NCBI RefSeq assembly: GCF_017515565.1
Contig: NZ_JAFWFN010000005.1
Location: 95,840-159,839, forward strand
Direction of reading: 5' to 3'
Length of the DNA stretch: 64,000 nucleotides
Source: Halomonas sp.
GTDB lineage: Bacteria; Pseudomonadota; Gammaproteobacteria; Pseudomonadales; Halomonadaceae
Made by a program: the position numbers and the translations under genes. Every line of letters begins with the position of its first letter. Position 1 is the stretch's first letter. The notes beneath the pieces were generated by a model. That model was not told the origin of the DNA. It worked only from the letters and a program-made list of their open reading frames with translations, and ran no database searches. Shown here one piece after another: positions 3,382 to 11,500 of this stretch.

Positions 3382-3472
3382 GGAGGGATGGCAGAGCGGT
3401 TGAATGCACCGGTCTTGAAAACCGGCATAGGTGAATAGCCTATCCAGGGTTCGAATCCCTGTCCCTCCGCCA
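3382..3472 (+). tRNA. tRNA-Ser(UGA)
   Basis: A complete 91-nt cloverleaf including encoded CCA. The acceptor stem pairs GGAGGGA (3382-3388) with TCCCTCC (3462-3468). The anticodon loop CTTGAAA carries UGA at 3416-3418. A long variable arm (class II) sits between the anticodon and T arms, and the T loop GGTTCGAATCC is intact. This identifies serine and codon UCA. The 3' 62 nt come from the integrated phage and restore the gene exactly. Confidence 0.97.
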
Positions 3473-3473
3473 A
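3411..3473 (+). repeat. attL: 63-bp direct repeat inside tRNA-Ser
   Basis: Bases 3411-3473 are identical to 42350-42412. The repeat runs from the anticodon arm (GGTCTTGAAAACC) through the CCA and one extra A. Bases flanking the repeat differ on both sides (C versus A on the left, C versus G on the right), which fixes its length. Confidence 0.96.
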
Positions 3474-3483
3474 CTTGATTATA

Positions 3484-3510
3484 AAGCCCCGTTTTTACGG
3501 GGCTTTTTTC
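3484..3510. terminator. Terminator after tRNA, facing integrase end
   Basis: Inverted repeat AAGCCCCGT / ACGGGGCTT around a TTTT loop, followed by a T run on the + strand and a T-containing tract on the other strand. It can end both the tRNA transcript and the leftward phage transcript that finishes with the integrase at 3515. Confidence 0.75.
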
Positions 3511-3514
3511 GTTT

Positions 3515-4657
3515 CTAGGCTCTGCGCTTCCTCCCTAGCAAGCCCTCTATTAACTGCACCGGTCTTTCACTGTGTCCAGATTGTGTCTGGGAATGTTCGA
3601 CCACTTCTGACGGTGTGCTTCGCCTCAGCCCATTGCCTAGCCGGTTAACCGCGTCGCGGGCGCGGTGGGGCGCGAGGTGTGCATACTTCTCTGTCATCTT
3701 CACAGTGGAGTGCCCCAGCACTTCTTTTACATCTAGCAGGGGAACGCCTTCACTAACCATCCAGCTCGCGCATGTGTGCCGAAGGTCATGGATGCGGAAG
3801 TTCTTAATCAGCGCTTTTTTGCACGCGCTCTTAAATCCTTCACGCAAGCACCCAAGTCGTTCGCCGTTCGATTTTGCAAATACCCATTCGCTGTGTGGGC
3901 AGATATTGGCAACCCATATCCAGCGTCGCTTTAATGCTGCTAGTGCCGCATCGTTCAGCGGTATCGAGCGCCGCTTTGCGCTCTTGGTGTCTTCACCTTC
4001 TAGGTGAAGTAGGGCATTATCGAAGTCGACCCGTGACCAGCTCATCCTCAGCAGCTCGTTCATTCGAGCGCCGGTGTTCAGGCCCAAAAGAATGAAGTCT
4101 GCAAGTCGCTCTCCGTTTCTCTGCGTTTTTGCTTTTGCTACTAGCCGATCTGCTTCTGCATGAGTGATCCATCTCACGAGTCCCTCTGGCTCCTTGAGCT
4201 TCCTGCCGCGAACAGGATTGCTCATGGGCCACTCTAATTGCTCAATGGCGTGATTGATCATCGCGCTGAGAATCGATAGTTCCCGGTTAATGGTCGCAGG
4301 CTTAACGCCGTCTGCTTGCCGAACTGCTATAAATTCCCGCACGTCCTTTCCCGCCATCTCTTCCATCACTACATCTGGCCCAAAGTGATCATACAGTCGG
4401 CCTGCTCGCCGCTGTATATCCTCAAATGTGCGCTTTTGCTGGCTGGCGCTCAGGAACTCGGCGGCGACCTCGGCAAAGGTATGCTCGGGCGATTTGCCCC
4501 AGGCGTTTTGCTGATACAGCTCTGACCGCCACTTTGCTTCCAGCGCCTTCGCTTCCCGATAGTCTACCGTCCCAGTAGAGCGTCTAACCGGCGTACCGCC
4601 TCCCGGCGGGGTGATTTTAGTCCACCAGAACGGTGAACCCTTACGTTTGTGGGGCAT
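3515..4657 (-). CDS. int: Tyrosine-recombinase phage integrase
   Basis: A 380-residue site-specific recombinase that joins phage attP to the tRNA-Ser attB. Residues about 55-145 form the SAM-like core-binding domain. The catalytic domain shows Arg198 (GARMNELLRM), Lys225 (EDTKSAKRR), His290 and Arg293 (HDLRHTCASW), His316 (GHSTVK) and the nucleophile Tyr325 (EKYAHL), so all active-site positions are present. AAGGAGAA lies 6 nt before the ATG, inside the excisionase gene, so the two genes overlap by 94 bp in different frames. It is the last gene of the leftward early operon and is next to attL, as expected. Confidence 0.97.
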   Translation of the reverse strand: MPHKRKGSPFWWTKITPPGGGTPVRRSTGTVDYREAKALEAKWRSELYQQNAWGKSPEHTFAEVAAEFLSASQQKRTFEDIQRRAGRLYDHFGPDVVMEEMAGKDVREFIAVRQADGVKPATINRELSILSAMINHAIEQLEWPMSNPVRGRKLKEPEGLVRWITHAEADRLVAKAKTQRNGERLADFILLGLNTGARMNELLRMSWSRVDFDNALLHLEGEDTKSAKRRSIPLNDAALAALKRRWIWVANICPHSEWVFAKSNGERLGCLREGFKSACKKALIKNFRIHDLRHTCASWMVSEGVPLLDVKEVLGHSTVKMTEKYAHLAPHRARDAVNRLGNGLRRSTPSEVVEHSQTQSGHSERPVQLIEGLLGRKRRA

Positions 4658-5463: not shown

Positions 5464-5753
5464 TGAACATCTCCAGCCATTTTGTGTGCGTCACCAATGT
5501 GCTTAAACGGTTTTGCTAATGGCGAACATTTCGCTAGCTCGATGTAGCGGTTGCGCTCTTCCAGCTCCAGGCGTTCTCGAACGGCATCACTAACACTGCC
5601 GCGCTTCTGATTGGCTACAAGCTGCATTCCACGCTTGCCTGCCAAGTAGCGGCTATACACGGTGCCTTTCGGTAGCTGGTAACGTTGAGCTAGTCTCACC
5701 AGTTGTATTTGCTCACCGGTGTTGGGGTCTGTAGTCATAATGGGTTCATGCAT
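5460..5753 (-). CDS. Small HTH-like phage protein
   Basis: A 97-residue hypothetical protein. Residues about 20-45 (LVRLAQRYQLPKGTVYSRYL) look like a helix-turn-helix, followed by a charged helix with RERLELEERNRY. A regulatory or DNA-binding role is plausible but not shown. The start overlaps the rdgC stop by 8 bp, and an in-frame ATG at 5738 is an alternative. It belongs to the early leftward operon. Confidence 0.6.
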   Translation of the reverse strand: MHEPIMTTDPNTGEQIQLVRLAQRYQLPKGTVYSRYLAGKRGMQLVANQKRGSVSDAVRERLELEERNRYIELAKCSPLAKPFKHIGDAHKMAGDVQ

Positions 5754-6690
5754 TGCCGTTGCCCTCGCTATTGCGCTTGGCTTCGCCGCCTAGCCATTCA
5801 ATGATTCGTTCCACGCTGTCGCGCAGACTGCCTGCCATGAGCACGAAGTCGGTTTCCAGGCGGGCTAGGGCGTCGTCGCCATCGTCGGTGGCGTCGGCTT
5901 CTTCGATGAGGGCGTCACCGAAGCGAATGGATTTAAGCGCGAGATCGTCATGCAGGGTGAAGGAGAGTTGGCCTTCAATGTTTAGCGCTAACTGAGTAGC
6001 CTGGCGCCCGCTTTCAAGCAGCTGCTGCATTTCATCGCTGTCGAGGTCTACTTGACGCCCACGCAGTACGCCATCATCGCCCTTGGCTTTCAGCACCACG
6101 CTATCGCCTATTTGCAGGTCGGCAGGGCGGCTGACTGTGTTGCCTAGCCATGTGGTCATGGCTCTTACGGGCAACGTTTGGGTAGCTAACGGCGTTACTT
6201 TTAGGCTACCCAAAGTTTCGCGTAGCAGATCCAGCACGTCTTCAGCGCGTGAGCGGCTGCTAGTGTTTACGCCGATCAGGTTGCGCTCAGTGTCCCACCA
6301 GAGGTCTATTTTCTGGCTGCGCACGAAGGCGCGGGGCAGTAGCTCTTCGGTGACCTGTTCCTTGAGCGCGGTTTTCTCTTTCCGCGTTACCTTGCGGGCC
6401 TCGGTGGCTTCGATCTCGGCTACCTTGTCGACCACTTCCTCAGCCACGACGGAGGCGGGTAGCAGTCGCTCTTGCCGGAGGGCGCTTATCAGGCGGTGGC
6501 CATCGTTCTGCAGAGTGTGTAGCAGTTGGCCACCACCCAGGCGACCTGCTGGCGCTGACCAGCCAATACGGCGGGCGTCGGCATTACCCAGCGGCTTACT
6601 GGCATGCTCGGCTAATAGCTCTGCTGTTTGCTCAGGGCTGAGTAGCTGCATGCCATGAAGGCGGTAGAGGTGTAGGTGTTTGAACCACAT
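5746..6690 (-). CDS. rdgC: Recombination-associated protein RdgC
   Basis: A 314-residue homologue of RdgC, the ring-shaped dsDNA-binding protein that limits RecA function and affects replication-linked recombination. Family hallmarks are the N-terminus MWFKHLHLYRL, the central RIGWSAPAG-like segment, LLPRAFVRSQKIDLWWD and the C-terminal acidic region. Length matches the chromosomal E. coli protein (303 aa). Its place in a phage early operon suggests control of host RecA or of phage recombination during replication. It overlaps the preceding 28-aa gene by one base (TAATG). Confidence 0.95.
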   Translation of the reverse strand: MWFKHLHLYRLHGMQLLSPEQTAELLAEHASKPLGNADARRIGWSAPAGRLGGGQLLHTLQNDGHRLISALRQERLLPASVVAEEVVDKVAEIEATEARKVTRKEKTALKEQVTEELLPRAFVRSQKIDLWWDTERNLIGVNTSSRSRAEDVLDLLRETLGSLKVTPLATQTLPVRAMTTWLGNTVSRPADLQIGDSVVLKAKGDDGVLRGRQVDLDSDEMQQLLESGRQATQLALNIEGQLSFTLHDDLALKSIRFGDALIEEADATDDGDDALARLETDFVLMAGSLRDSVERIIEWLGGEAKRNSEGNGNA

Positions 6691-8043: not shown

Positions 8044-8315
8044 TGGGCACCTCCTTTGTTTTGGTAGGCGCGCAATTCACCCACCATTTGCTCCAAGCCG
8101 TTCAAGGCGCGCTCAGGCGTGGTGAGGGGCGGCAGCGAGGTGGAAAATAGCGTCTCTTCGTCGTCGTCATGCGCATCTTTCACCGACACGCCGCCGGGGG
8201 CGATGACCATGACGGCACAGCGCTGCTGCAGCACTTGCATATCCAGCACCATGTCGGCGAGGTCATGAACGCGGTTTCTCACTAGCTGTGCGGTGGTTTT
8301 TTCTACGATGCTCAT
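8040..8315 (-). CDS. Hypothetical early phage protein
   Basis: A 91-residue soluble protein, first half likely helical (RNRVHDLADMVLDMQVLQQR), with an acidic patch DAHDDDEE in the middle. The start overlaps the stop of the LuxR-type gene by 4 bp and the stop overlaps the next start by 4 bp, so it is tightly coupled in the early operon. No family recognised. Confidence 0.6.
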   Translation of the reverse strand: MSIVEKTTAQLVRNRVHDLADMVLDMQVLQQRCAVMVIAPGGVSVKDAHDDDEETLFSTSLPPLTTPERALNGLEQMVGELRAYQNKGGAQ

Positions 8316-8698
8316 GCGTACACACTCCCCGTATCGCGGCGTGCCACGGTGCGGCTGGCACTGACCTGCTGGCGCGTTCGTACAGGTGGCCGGTGACGCA
8401 TGGCTTCGGTTTCGGGATTGAGGCCGCTGACCATGAGCGCGACCAGTAGCGGGGCAATCCAGCCGCGGCGCATGGCTTCAGCTACGGCGCCAGCGGCTTT
8501 GTAAACGTGGAGCTTGTGATACGCTTTTTTAAGGCTGCCGTGCACGGTTTCCGGTGAGCGACCGGTGGCCTTGGCAATCTCTTTGTAGGTGTTGCCAGCC
8601 GCCAGTAGCATGAGATCCACCGCTTGTGTGCGGGTGAGACCTAAGCTGCCTCGCTCTGGGTTTATTTCTGCCTTCCAGTTGCCTTGTGTGATTTGCAT
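8312..8698 (-). CDS. LuxR/GerE-type HTH regulator, first gene of leftward operon
   Basis: A 128-residue protein. Residues 18-70 match the LuxR C-terminal HTH: LGLTRTQAVDLMLLAAGNTY, KEIAKATGRSPETV and KLHV then AVAEAMRRGWI. There is no receiver or ligand domain, so it is a stand-alone HTH protein. As the first gene under the repressor-controlled leftward promoter it could control later phage genes, a position where lambda-like phages keep early regulators. Its C-terminal 45 residues are basic and unstructured-looking. Confidence 0.75.
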   Translation of the reverse strand: MQITQGNWKAEINPERGSLGLTRTQAVDLMLLAAGNTYKEIAKATGRSPETVHGSLKKAYHKLHVYKAAGAVAEAMRRGWIAPLLVALMVSGLNPETEAMRHRPPVRTRQQVSASRTVARRDTGSVYA

Positions 8699-8731: not shown

Positions 8732-8760
8732 AATATAGGCAAACACATAATATAGGTCAA
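8732..8760 (-). promoter_or_regulatory. Leftward early promoter (PL-like)
   Basis: On the reverse strand TTGACC (8755-8760) and TATATT (8732-8737) are separated by exactly 17 bp, a near-ideal sigma70 promoter. It would start about 27 nt before the LuxR-type gene and drive the whole leftward operon to int. Two repressor-type operators overlap its two boxes. Confidence 0.8.
8734..8749. promoter_or_regulatory. Operator OL1-like, TATAGGCAAACACATA
   Basis: An imperfect dyad TATAGG-N4-CACATA, nearly the same as the operator at 11186-11201. It covers the -10 box and spacer of the leftward promoter, so binding would block transcription. Confidence 0.6.
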
Positions 8761-8774
8761 TAGGTATTCCTATA
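8759..8774. promoter_or_regulatory. Operator OL2-like, AATAGGTATTCCTATA
   Basis: Dyad ATAGG-N4-CCTAT with the same TATTCCTATA half as the operator at 11210-11225. It abuts the -35 box of the leftward promoter, centred 25 bp from the other operator. Confidence 0.65.
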
Positions 8775-8790
8775 TTTTGAATATAAGCAC

Positions 8791-8812
8791 AAAAAACCGC
8801 CTCGATGGGCGG
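8791..8812 (-). terminator. Terminator of the repressor operon
   Basis: On the reverse strand CCGCC-CATCGA-GGCGG is followed by TTTTTT. It lies directly after the 4-TM gene and before the leftward promoter, so it ends the cI transcript and separates it from the early operon. Confidence 0.75.
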
Positions 8813-8836
8813 CGTTTCACGATGAGAAAGAGAGGA

Positions 8837-9505
8837 CTACTGCTCTAGGGTATTTGAAGCCTCTGACTTTTTCATGCCTGTTAGGAGAGCTACTTGCTGG
8901 TCAGGTGGCTTATCTGCGTTGGCTTGATTTCCGCTAGGTGGGCGATGAATTCGGTATGAAAGGTAATAAAGCCCTAACATTGTTACAACAAATAGATGAG
9001 CAGAGGCTACTGAGTACAGCGCCACAAATAGTGCCCGGAGCCAGTAGGCCGCTTGGGCTGAAACCATTTCTGAAACGCCACTACTGATCAGGTTGGCGAA
9101 ACCGCCTGTAAAATAAAGACAAATTGATAATAAGGCCAAGTGGCCAAAAAGAAAGCAAAGAAAGGCCCGTCTTTTCAAGCTGACGGGCTTTTTCTCGCCT
9201 CTGCGTGTTTCATTCAAGATTGCAGGTGAGCCATCAAGCGGTTGCTCTAATGTTTCGCTTGGAAATGTCGCTACCGCAGCTAATGCAGCAATATAAAAAC
9301 CGGTCAGCATCTGCAAAAGGCCGGTGATCAAGCTCACGTAACCTTTGTCACCGAAAACAGGCGCATGTGGTCCAAGGGCAATTAGCACTCCAGCGACGCT
9401 CAATCCAAGAATCAAGGGAATTACAAAATCAATTTGATATTTAACCTTATTTTTGATTCTTAGGTATCTGAACGGCGTTAGAAGTTGTTTTATTTGAGTA
9501 CGCAT
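8837..9505 (-). CDS. 4-TM membrane protein in the cI operon (lysogeny cargo)
   Basis: A 222-residue protein with four clear hydrophobic segments at about residues 27-47, 56-80, 112-136 and 148-180, short polar ends and a charged loop (residues 85-110, RRGEKKPVSLKRR). The C-terminal 40 residues are soluble. It is the last gene of the repressor transcript (19 bp after the 316-aa gene, then a terminator), so it should be made in the lysogen. I recognise no family. Soluble partner plus 4-TM protein resembles the layout of anti-phage systems such as Kiwa (KwaA is a 4-TM protein), but I see no sequence match and the comparison is only architectural. Confidence 0.75.
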   Translation of the reverse strand: MRTQIKQLLTPFRYLRIKNKVKYQIDFVIPLILGLSVAGVLIALGPHAPVFGDKGYVSLITGLLQMLTGFYIAALAAVATFPSETLEQPLDGSPAILNETRRGEKKPVSLKRRAFLCFLFGHLALLSICLYFTGGFANLISSGVSEMVSAQAAYWLRALFVALYSVASAHLFVVTMLGLYYLSYRIHRPPSGNQANADKPPDQQVALLTGMKKSEASNTLEQ

Positions 9506-9524
9506 GGCCTCTCAACTATTCCAG

Positions 9525-10475
9525 CTACTGGTTGAGTAGCGAGAGCATTTTTCCTGCAAATGTTTGGTTAACCTCTGGCGCGCACTGATCAAGATTTACA
9601 TCTACAGAAATTAGCTCATCCTTTAACACCAAAACATCTCGAAGATCTTCTTCTGAAGTACCCATTATAACTGACTTCTGACGGCCCTCTTTCTTTTTAT
9701 ACCTAACACGCAACTCATCATAGCCGTTGTTCTTACCCCAAAGCCTTAGACCCAATAACTCGCCATCACCGATGTTCCATTTGGAATGACCTGGGCTTAG
9801 GCGAACTTTCATCACCTGAGACTCTTCATAAAAATAGCCTTCTTCATCGAGAGACTCAGCATTTTGGACTCTTTTAATGAGTTCCACGCCTGCTAGCTGT
9901 CCTTTCTCTAGCTCGTCGACAAAAGATTTCGATGGGGTCCCTAGCAGCTCAGTCGAAGGACGATAGGGCTTCAAGGCGCCTGCTGATTCGTCATGGTACT
10001 CAAAGAGACCCTCAGCGGCATCTTTGATCTGTTTTTTCAAGAAAGGGTCTACGTTGCTGCGACCAAGTCCAGGGACAACCTCAAGCAAAAATGGGTAAGT
10101 GTCTGGCTTTCCCTCTATAGGGGTAAGACCGATAACGGCATGCGCTGAAACTGCAACTCCTTCGCCTTGGAGTTTGGGTTCATGCCTTAGCTCTCCAGTT
10201 TGCAAGTCAGCAAAGACAGGGTCTGTCGCGTCTTGATCAGCGTATTGAAACAGCAAGACTAGGGCTTCAGGGTGCCCTTTTTGGCGATTCTGGGAGTAGT
10301 CCGTGATCCTATAAGCTGAACGCTCGTTATTTCTAAGCTGAAAGGCCTCACCATCATTAATAATTCTTTCTAAATGTGGAATGATATCTTTGAGCAATAT
10401 AGTTGGCGCGTCAGCTGGATCAGATTTCAACACTAGCTCATGAAATTGTACCCAGCGCTCCCTGATATGCAGCAT
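9525..10475 (-). CDS. 316-aa soluble protein in the cI operon (lysogeny cargo)
   Basis: A protein of unknown family, without signal or TM segment, starting at the ATG at 10475 with GAGGG 6 nt upstream (an ATG at 10481 is the alternative). It has a mixed alpha/beta look: an N-terminal helical region, a central segment with PFLLEVVPGLGRSNVDPF, and a C-terminal half rich in beta-type stretches (VRLSPGHSKW, LLGLRLWGKN, YDELRVRYKKKEGRQ, DVLVLKDELISVDVNL). It follows cI by about 30 bp and precedes the 4-TM gene, with no terminator between, so the three genes are one operon. Lysogenic expression suggests immunity or superinfection control; the activity itself cannot be read from the sequence. Confidence 0.75.
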   Translation of the reverse strand: MLHIRERWVQFHELVLKSDPADAPTILLKDIIPHLERIINDGEAFQLRNNERSAYRITDYSQNRQKGHPEALVLLFQYADQDATDPVFADLQTGELRHEPKLQGEGVAVSAHAVIGLTPIEGKPDTYPFLLEVVPGLGRSNVDPFLKKQIKDAAEGLFEYHDESAGALKPYRPSTELLGTPSKSFVDELEKGQLAGVELIKRVQNAESLDEEGYFYEESQVMKVRLSPGHSKWNIGDGELLGLRLWGKNNGYDELRVRYKKKEGRQKSVIMGTSEEDLRDVLVLKDELISVDVNLDQCAPEVNQTFAGKMLSLLNQ

Positions 10476-10506
10476 ACCCATCCCTCATAAATTTTTGATT
10501 TTTATA

Positions 10507-11175
10507 CTAAAGCTTAGTCTTAGCCTCCACCGCCACGCCCAGTATCCGGCAATTTCCGTTGATCGGTATGAGGGGATACGCAGGGTTGAGTGGTTTTAAA
10601 TATTTCTGTCCACTTTCAACGATATATTTCTTAAACGTAGCTTCGTTGCTTTCGTCTAGCTGGGCTACCACCAGTTTTCCTGGCGTCGCTTCAATGCCGG
10701 TATCCACCAGTACCAGCGTTCCCTCTGGAATGCTGGGCCTTACGCCTGCTGGTGCGGTCATTGAGTCGCCAGCCACTTCCAACCAAAAGGCTGGCCCTTT
10801 GGCACTGTAGTCTGTGGTTTCGTGCTGTTCTTCCATGCCTGCAGGATATGGCACTACACACTCTGCAAACTTGCCTGCCTGAACGCTAGAAATCACAGGG
10901 TAGCGATAGTAGCGCAGCGGTGTGGGTGCTATAGACACGTTGTTATTAGTGGCAGAGCTTACTGCGCCTGCAACCATTTCGCCTTTGCCAGTAGCAAGCC
11001 ATAAGGCGCTCACTCCTAGCTCATGAGCAATCTGGGTAGAGAATGATGTTGACTTAGATTTGCCGCGCTCTAAATCCGAGATGCTAGTTTGTTGCACGCC
11101 AATTTTTTTGGCGAGCTCTGCTTGATTAAGGCCAGCCAACTTCCTGGCTTTTTTAAGGCGGTCTTTGAATTCCAT
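10507..11175 (-). CDS. cI: CI-like S24 phage repressor
   Basis: A 222-residue lytic-gene repressor. Residues 4-60 are an XRE helix-turn-helix (AGLNQAELAKKIGVQQTSIS). The C-terminal half is a LexA/CI-type S24 self-cleaving domain with cleavage site Ala100-Gly101 (SVQAGKF), nucleophile Ser138 (VAGDSMTAPA) and general base Lys182/183 (ATFKKY); the end GQKYLKPLNPAYPLIP follows lambda CI closely. It should therefore be induced by RecA/SOS. I chose the ATG at 11175 because the predicted promoter would start the RNA only about 2 nt upstream, giving a leaderless message as for lambda cI; ATG 11181 is the alternative. It faces the divergent cro-like gene. Confidence 0.95.
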   Translation of the reverse strand: MEFKDRLKKARKLAGLNQAELAKKIGVQQTSISDLERGKSKSTSFSTQIAHELGVSALWLATGKGEMVAGAVSSATNNNVSIAPTPLRYYRYPVISSVQAGKFAECVVPYPAGMEEQHETTDYSAKGPAFWLEVAGDSMTAPAGVRPSIPEGTLVLVDTGIEATPGKLVVAQLDESNEATFKKYIVESGQKYLKPLNPAYPLIPINGNCRILGVAVEAKTKL

Positions 11176-11183
11176 AATCAATT

Positions 11184-11211
11184 TATATAGGCGAACCCAT
11201 ATGCTTGCAAA
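11184..11211 (-). promoter_or_regulatory. Repressor maintenance promoter (PRM-like)
   Basis: On the reverse strand TTTGCA (11206-11211) and TATATA (11184-11189) are 16 bp apart. Operator 11186-11201 covers the -10 region, so the repressor can shut off its own gene at high level, and operator 11210-11225 abuts the -35 box, where activation is possible. Confidence 0.55.
11186..11201. promoter_or_regulatory. Operator OR3-like, TATAGGCGAACCCATA
   Basis: Dyad TATAGG-N4-CCCATA over the -10 box of the repressor promoter. It is the counterpart of 8734-8749, from which it differs at two positions. Confidence 0.6.
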
Positions 11212-11233
11212 CGGGTATTCCTATACTTATTAT
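11205..11233 (+). promoter_or_regulatory. Rightward early promoter (PR-like)
   Basis: TTGCAA (11205-11210) and TATTAT (11228-11233) are 17 bp apart. Transcription would begin near 11240 and enter the cro-like gene and replication genes. One operator lies in its spacer and one at the start site. Confidence 0.75.
11210..11225. promoter_or_regulatory. Operator OR2-like, AACGGGTATTCCTATA
   Basis: Half-sites GGG and CCTATA around TATT, inside the spacer of the rightward promoter. Centre-to-centre it is 24 bp from the left operator and 23 bp from the right one. Confidence 0.6.
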
Positions 11234-11248
11234 ATGGGAATGCCTATT
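11233..11248. promoter_or_regulatory. Operator OR1-like, TATGGGAATGCCTATT
   Basis: Dyad ATGGG-N4-CCTAT over the predicted start site of the rightward promoter, ending 3 bp before the Shine-Dalgarno of the cro-like gene. Confidence 0.6.
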
Positions 11249-11263
11249 AAGGAGCACGCAAAG

Positions 11264-11500
11264 ATGAGTCAAACCTCTACCTTCCAAAGACTGGTGGGTT
11301 TCTTCGGCAATCAAATAAAAACAGCAGAACTGCTGAAAGTTGACCAAGCAACTGTTTCAGGGTGGGTGCGTGGAAAGCATGGCATGTCTCCTGCTGTTGC
11401 GCTGCGAGCGGAAAAGTTAACGAACGGCAAGTTTACTGCCGCCCAGCTGTGCCCTTCGGTTTTTGTTCAGCCGCCTGCTGAAAAGGTGGCGTCTCAATGA
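11264..11500 (+). CDS. cro: Cro-like HTH repressor
   Basis: A 78-residue protein of the YdaS/Cro-like type. The N-terminal 55 residues hold a helix-turn-helix (NQIKTAELLKVDQATVSGWV) followed by MSPAVALRAEKLTNGKF, the usual pattern of Cro-type regulators (CI/Cro pair). Start is the ATG at 11264, with AAGGAG 9 nt upstream; the open frame extends back into the operator region, which cannot be coding for this gene. It is first in the rightward operon, so it should antagonise the repressor at the shared operators. Confidence 0.9.
   Translation: MSQTSTFQRLVGFFGNQIKTAELLKVDQATVSGWVRGKHGMSPAVALRAEKLTNGKFTAAQLCPSVFVQPPAEKVASQ

Follow-up and report, generated by a model that had tools for sequence, protein, structure and literature searches.

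A RexAB-type gene pair, putatively for abortive infection, behind the repressor of a Halomonas prophage

Gene order in the immunity region

The window, that is the whole 64,000-nucleotide stretch of Halomonas sp. DNA analysed here, carries a prophage with an integrase, an O-like replication gene and genes for terminase, portal, head protease, capsid and tape measure. The integrase (3515-4657) is convergent with the tRNA-Ser gene that it adjoins (3382-3472), and the stretch 3382-4657 is likely the attachment end of the element.

Three genes follow one another on the minus strand. The first gene of the presumed transcript encodes a cI-type repressor (10507-11175; HTH_3 7e-13 and Peptidase_S24 1.5e-23), whose start was read as ATG, with a TTG at 11181 likewise in frame. 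It is followed by gene A (9525-10475), encoding a soluble RexA-type putative sensor of 316 aa (318 aa if the ATG at 10481 is used), and by gene B (8837-9505), encoding a 222-aa RexB-type putative effector with four predicted transmembrane (TM) segments; both were assigned from PADLOC matches (PDC-M53A and PDC-M53B families), homology to the locus L228 and AlphaFold2 models. The sequence-only reading had described these three genes on one strand, and the coordinates, the repressor domains and the AlphaFold model agree with it. Of the two gaps that it had put at about 30 bp each, the cI-A gap measures 31 bp and the A-B gap 19 bp. Two features of RexAB-type systems are present here: the four-TM partner lies directly downstream of the soluble gene, and the pair is tied to a phage repressor, with cI immediately upstream.

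As had been claimed, neither intergenic gap contains a terminator-like match, while the coding sequence of B itself has a single weak one (9180-9165). Past the end of B, also on the minus strand, an intrinsic-terminator-like hairpin (8796-8813; 6-bp stem with five G-C pairs, then a T-run) precedes a sigma-70-like, pL-like promoter (8760-8732; TTGACC-17-TATATT, 10 of 12 consensus positions). The earlier picture had a clear terminator ahead of a leftward promoter; in the scanned region, terminator-like sites (10 versus 9.4 in shuffles, sd 3.6) and promoter-like sites (3 versus 4.2, sd 2.2) were not above chance, so that both elements are argued from position.

The promoter forms part of an OL/pL-like region (8732-8774) with operator-like half-sites at 8734-8774. 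On the other side of cI, an OR-like region (11176-11248) contains further half-sites (11186-11248) and a pRM-like promoter (TTGCAA-17-TATAAA, 9 of 12 positions), and separates cI from a divergent cro-like gene on the plus strand (11264-11500, with the start codon chosen by us). Scanned as the query 11198-11497, the latter matched YdaS_toxin (1.5e-9) and, with a score below Pfam's cut-off, P22_Cro (3e-5). The two clusters hold 7 of the 15 half-site matches (at most two mismatches) found within 64 kb, and the perfect half-site TATAGGAATACC occurs once in each cluster, with no further perfect copy in the 64 kb. Since the clusters flank the pair, A and B lie between OL-like and OR-like regions, as rexA and rexB do in the lambda annotation, and the proposed placement at the lambda rexAB position was borne out. 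The -10 element of the pRM-like promoter ends only 6 nt 5' of the cI ATG, which points to a possibly leaderless cI message; no Shine-Dalgarno sequence was seen at the cI start (11176-11200).

The first gene past the pL-like promoter (8312-8698, minus strand) encodes a protein of 128 aa with a LuxR/GerE-type HTH just below Pfam's cut-off. Two other loci of the family, L001 and L228, also have, by eye, a similar protein downstream of their pairs.

Family membership and the Pseudomonas putida relative

Protein A matched the PADLOC model PDLC04696 of PDC-M53A (E 1.5e-31) and three more M53A models, and protein B matched PDLC04699 of PDC-M53B (E 7e-44); in the 2023 version of PADLOC-DB used here, PDC-M53 is an unverified candidate defence system. 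Both proteins fall in PHROGs families of unknown function, neither matched Pfam or NCBIfam above cut-offs, and single-protein and profile searches of the sequences of solved structures gave weak, unrelated matches only. Among 83 A and 94 B proteins of the family, no match at E<=0.05 was obtained to Pfam RexA (PF15969), RexB (PF15968), DUF4747 (PF15931) or RdgC (PF04381), and no other Pfam family was matched by more than one or two of these proteins. Two other PADLOC candidates, PDC-M63AB and PDC-S04, gave no defence on testing, according to the accessible part of PMC12409345. The name PDC-M53 was not found in the open-licence PMC papers searched.

Both proteins are homologous to those of L228, with 25% identity over 262 aa for A (blastp E 5e-16) and 30% over 189 aa for B (E 4e-20), the E-values being those of a two-sequence comparison. 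The L228 pair itself matched the PDC-M53 models far more strongly than the window pair (A 8e-157, B 3e-72). It lies on contig 637000222_000004, whose IMG number we take to be that of P. putida KT2440. From this number, six of seven published residues, the mass of A and the neighbouring genes, we identify L228 as prophage P1 of P. putida KT2440 and its genes as PP_5643/PP_5644, the pair named RexABpp.

The particulars were compared with the accessible part of the RexABpp report (PMC12894663). Read from a fixed start, L228 B carries the published RexBpp wild-type letters W25, F35, L55, S145, G153 and Y181; at the seventh position, T103, it has D, with T at 102. L228 A has a mass of 36.6 kDa, or 37.7 kDa with the tag, and the published value is 37.5. 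Its neighbours, named by eye, are an HTH-type repressor gene upstream and hicAB-like genes downstream, in agreement with P1. With a free start, the residue fingerprint was not discriminating among the 155 loci of the survey below (viral loci being the best 80 of 127), the best score being 5 of 7 and reached also at some shifted positions; the identification therefore uses just the fixed-start comparison of L228, with its 6 of 7.

The window pair shares with RexABpp the homology of both proteins, the order of soluble and four-TM genes, a CI-type repressor ahead of them and the PADLOC family. It differs in that identity is only 25-30% and that it directly follows cI, whereas RexABpp follows two further genes (PMC12894663, accessible part). 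Charge differs as well: window A is net acidic (38 K+R, 52 D+E) and L228 A net basic (43 and 37).

The accessible part of the same report describes how the P. putida pair behaves. Deleting either gene reduces phage resistance, both being required; RexBpp is a growth-suppressing effector that becomes toxic once RexApp is raised; and RexApp binds DNA, an activity less well supported for window A in view of its acidity. Contact between RexApp and RexBpp was not seen by two-hybrid, depolarisation was not seen with RexABpp, and RexApp supplied in trans failed to restore defence, which together leave a channel step uncertain (PMC12894663).

The pair had been put forward as an undescribed system. It is not: it stands in PADLOC-DB 2023 as PDC-M53A/B, and a homologous pair was tested in 2026 (PMC12894663, accessible part). 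What is new here is the sequence-based assignment of PDC-M53 to the RexABpp type, together with the breadth of the family; no printed link between PDC-M53 and RexABpp was found in open-licence PMC papers, among which PMC11990801 contains both RexAB and PADLOC. The link gives a PADLOC candidate a tested relative and adds natural variants (82 clustered A proteins among the matches listed, gp50/gp49 of phage SfII and two Vibrio Vinavirales records), and by such comparison the old Rex question, what the trigger is and how the membrane protein acts, becomes approachable.

Pairing, placement and conserved positions

We assembled 155 loci, overlapping and near-identical records included: 66 from genomes and the best 80 of 127 viral matches (both from B searches), one match to A, four from the genus and four named phages. 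In 150 of the 155 (viral loci again being the best 80 of 127), B is preceded on its own strand by A, whole or in pieces. The misses are L032 and L043, which are without A, L037, which retains a C-terminal piece of A, and two loci cut off by a contig end, which leaves a piece of A there in L072 and B itself in L116. Some other loci have a partial A at the contig edge. A is split in two frames at L098, L132 and L145, and the A of genome G060 (L003) contains an in-frame TAG. These four loci look decayed, with A broken while B reads through.

Clustering at 80% identity left 82 A proteins among the matches listed. In these 82 pairs, counted without redundancy, A and B lie a median of 3 bp apart and overlap in 29. 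A same-strand gene lies upstream in 57 of the 82; two of these ran off the contig, and among the 55 scanned (genes called by a longest-ORF rule) HTH_3 was found in 9 and Peptidase_S24 in 7. Placement behind a repressor therefore recurs but is not the rule, so that the survey of repressor-linked pairs proposed by the sequence-only reading upheld the constancy of the pair and showed it mostly not directly behind a repressor.

Elsewhere the pair occupies varied places. In Shigella phage SfII (gp50/gp49) its neighbours are Q on one side and the lysis genes on the other, with the pair on the opposite strand; in Salmonella phage F1055 it is found before the holins, and in two Vibrio records (L007, L008) near one end. 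This variety makes the pair a portable cassette, and the classing of the two Vibrio records as Vinavirales, not Caudoviricetes, means that it also occurs outside the tailed phages. The pair is sparse within the genus and the class: of 82 genomes of the genus, four, including the window's own, carry A, with B adjoining in all four, and among 369 genomes of the class a search begun from A recovered it from the window's own genome alone. The same-genus loci L002-L004 resemble the named Halomonas loci L059, L061 and L052 in lengths and scores.

In an alignment of 95 B proteins, G69, F70, I72, A73 and L75 in TM2 are invariant, as is R113 at the start of TM3, where R112 is found in 86 and F115 in 90 of the 95. 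An acidic residue in the loop, E87 in the window, is D in 90 of the proteins. Among the positions of the RexBpp suppressor mutations in the accessible part of PMC12894663, Y181 is Y in 80 and F in 15 (Y181 in the window), W25 is partly kept (W in 61; F27 in the window), and the rest are not conserved among the 95. Changes in the central cytoplasmic loop of Sbash gp31 destroy defence, according to the accessible part of PMC6426596, which makes the conserved stretch of B from the loop to the start of TM3 a good place to look.

Likeness to Rex systems and competing readings

AlphaFold models were confident for both proteins. That of B (mean pLDDT 91.3) consists of four long helices and a hairpin. 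That of A (pLDDT 91.8), whose longest helix has 16 residues, has an N part rich in strands with a helix at 139-154, then a beta-alpha-beta unit (167-202). Next come one strand with its helix (219-249) and further strands (254-272); confidence is low at 271-280, and the chain closes with another strand and the C-terminal helix (304-314). This order, compared by eye, agrees with the published layout of RexA, with globular parts at 1-139 and 248-279, a dimerisation domain at 143-234 and a swivel loop at 235-247 (PMC11077077). Foldseek gave no PDB match at E<=0.001 for A or B, and RexA (8twq) was absent from the best 50 of 651 PDB matches. Against BFVD, A matched four phage proteins that are uncharacterised (5e-12 to 6e-9). 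The match ranked sixth was to a phage 'recombination associated protein' (E 1.4e-3, probability 0.92, with a TM-score of only 0.26), which we read as RdgC; RexA is itself RdgC-like (PMC11077077).

Direct similarity of the pair to lambda RexA/RexB appears weak in profile comparisons, with a best P of 2e-4, for B. A against RexA (hhalign) gave P 0.021 and a probability of 2% (score 23 versus 16-17 reversed), over the corresponding C-terminal part. B against the RexB profile gave P 0.0021, and against a merged profile of RexB and DUF4747 partners P 2e-4 over 33 columns (score 34 versus 13 reversed); RexB against the DUF4747 partners gave P 3.7e-4 and a score of 31.5, yet reversed controls scored 22. 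For A, comparisons with RexA, DUF4747, actinophage, Butters/Toast, RdgC and KwaB profiles were all weak (P 0.02 to 0.5), and merging RexA with DUF4747 (P 0.22) or Butters/Toast (P 0.11) brought no gain.

The likeness to lambda therefore lies in the order of cI, soluble gene and four-TM gene between OL and OR, in a similar predicted element order and in this weak resemblance of profiles, which peaks at TM2 of B. The differences are that A and B match neither the Pfam nor the PADLOC models of RexA/RexB and that window B, at 222 aa, is longer than lambda RexB (144 aa) and has a central loop that contains a hairpin. The actinophage pairs CarolAnn gp44/43, Sbash gp30/31 and Butters gp30/31 are likewise soluble plus four-TM prophage defence pairs, that of CarolAnn being on the repressor transcript (PMC6426606, PMC6426596 and PMC7542560, accessible parts), and in CarolAnn and Sbash both genes are needed (PMC7542560, accessible part). 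They differ from the window pair in showing no clear profile similarity (best P 0.041 for A; no match of B to the actinophage membrane protein profiles).

DUF4747 loci offer a further comparison, with no PF15931 match for the window proteins and no DUF4747 relatives in viral contigs, plasmids or phages. In the six such loci read, a TM-rich gene came next downstream in all six. One of them (L188, 282-2602, minus strand) has an S24-type repressor (by eye), a DUF4747 protein and a TM-rich protein in the lambda cI-rexA-rexB order.

Taken together, the homology of both proteins to the L228 pair, the constancy of the pair, the predicted TM layout and the position in the immunity region indicate that A and B are probably a RexAB-type abortive-infection (superinfection-exclusion) pair behind the prophage repressor. 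In the lysogen, the cI promoter would make repressor, A and B together. A would be a dimer with a RexA/RdgC-like split fold, idle until another phage infects and then triggered by nucleoprotein or replication intermediates of the invader or by some early protein. Activated A would turn on B, a multimeric four-TM inner-membrane protein, probably through the cytoplasmic ends and central loop of B, and B would harm or permeabilise the membrane and halt growth, so that the invader is not multiplied. The need for both genes, B as effector and excess A as trigger were shown in relatives (PMC12894663, accessible part); expression, trigger, A-B contact and defence in the window pair we infer by analogy.

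A different role, which we consider unlikely, is that of a lysogeny-switch module. The main task of A would then be to adjust the CI-Cro switch, as is known for lambda RexA, with B holding A in check and exclusion arising as a side effect. The position of the pair between OL-like and OR-like sites, adjoining cI, would suit such a role, but the family lies mostly away from repressors (the 9 and 7 of 55 upstream genes scanned, among the matches listed), the SfII and Vinavirales placements do not fit it, and P. putida becomes less resistant to phage when either gene is deleted (PMC12894663, accessible part). Less likely still is an arrangement with A as the antiviral effector and B as the membrane partner that sequesters it there. 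This has been published for a Rex-like pair, Butters gp30/gp31 (PMC7542560, accessible part), but the roles are reversed in the nearest tested relative, where RexBpp suppresses growth (PMC12894663, accessible part), and Butters/Toast profiles match the family weakly at best (P 0.049 for A, 0.16 for B). The Kiwa-like identity that the sequence-only reading had offered beside the RexA/RexB-like one was rejected as highly improbable: sizes are comparable and Kiwa loci (L156-L166) have a TM-rich partner gene, but no sequence relation was found (no KwaA/KwaB match at E<=1 with HMMs, hhalign probability 0.1-0.2% and no match in the profile comparison that included RexA/RexB), and the TM gene precedes KwaB, the reverse of the window order. 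Of that double suggestion, the RexAB-type half is the best reading, through L228, and the profile, structure and defence-database searches proposed with it led to PDC-M53A/B, with no RexA/RexB or KwaA/KwaB model and no PDB match at E<=0.001.

Beyond the RexAB-type reading of this locus, PDC-M53/RexABpp, lambda RexAB, the DUF4747 plus TM pairs and the actinophage pairs could be branches of one old superfamily, a tentative idea that we rate just short of an even chance. An RdgC-fold DNA clamp would have become a sensor of infection, and behind it would come a four-TM protein that stops growth, with a TM2 motif in common. Phages of Proteobacteria and of Actinobacteria, tailed or not, would carry this portable cassette, and lambda RexAB would be a rare side branch.

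The prophage also carries an RdgC gene of its own at 5746-6690 on the minus strand (phrog_724, E 2.7e-89; Pfam RdgC above the cut-off), a second copy beside the other RdgC of the same genome, on contig C59. As the RexA fold is RdgC-like, this phage encodes a RexA-type protein as well as a true RdgC, both on its minus strand, and L001 shows, by eye, the same arrangement.
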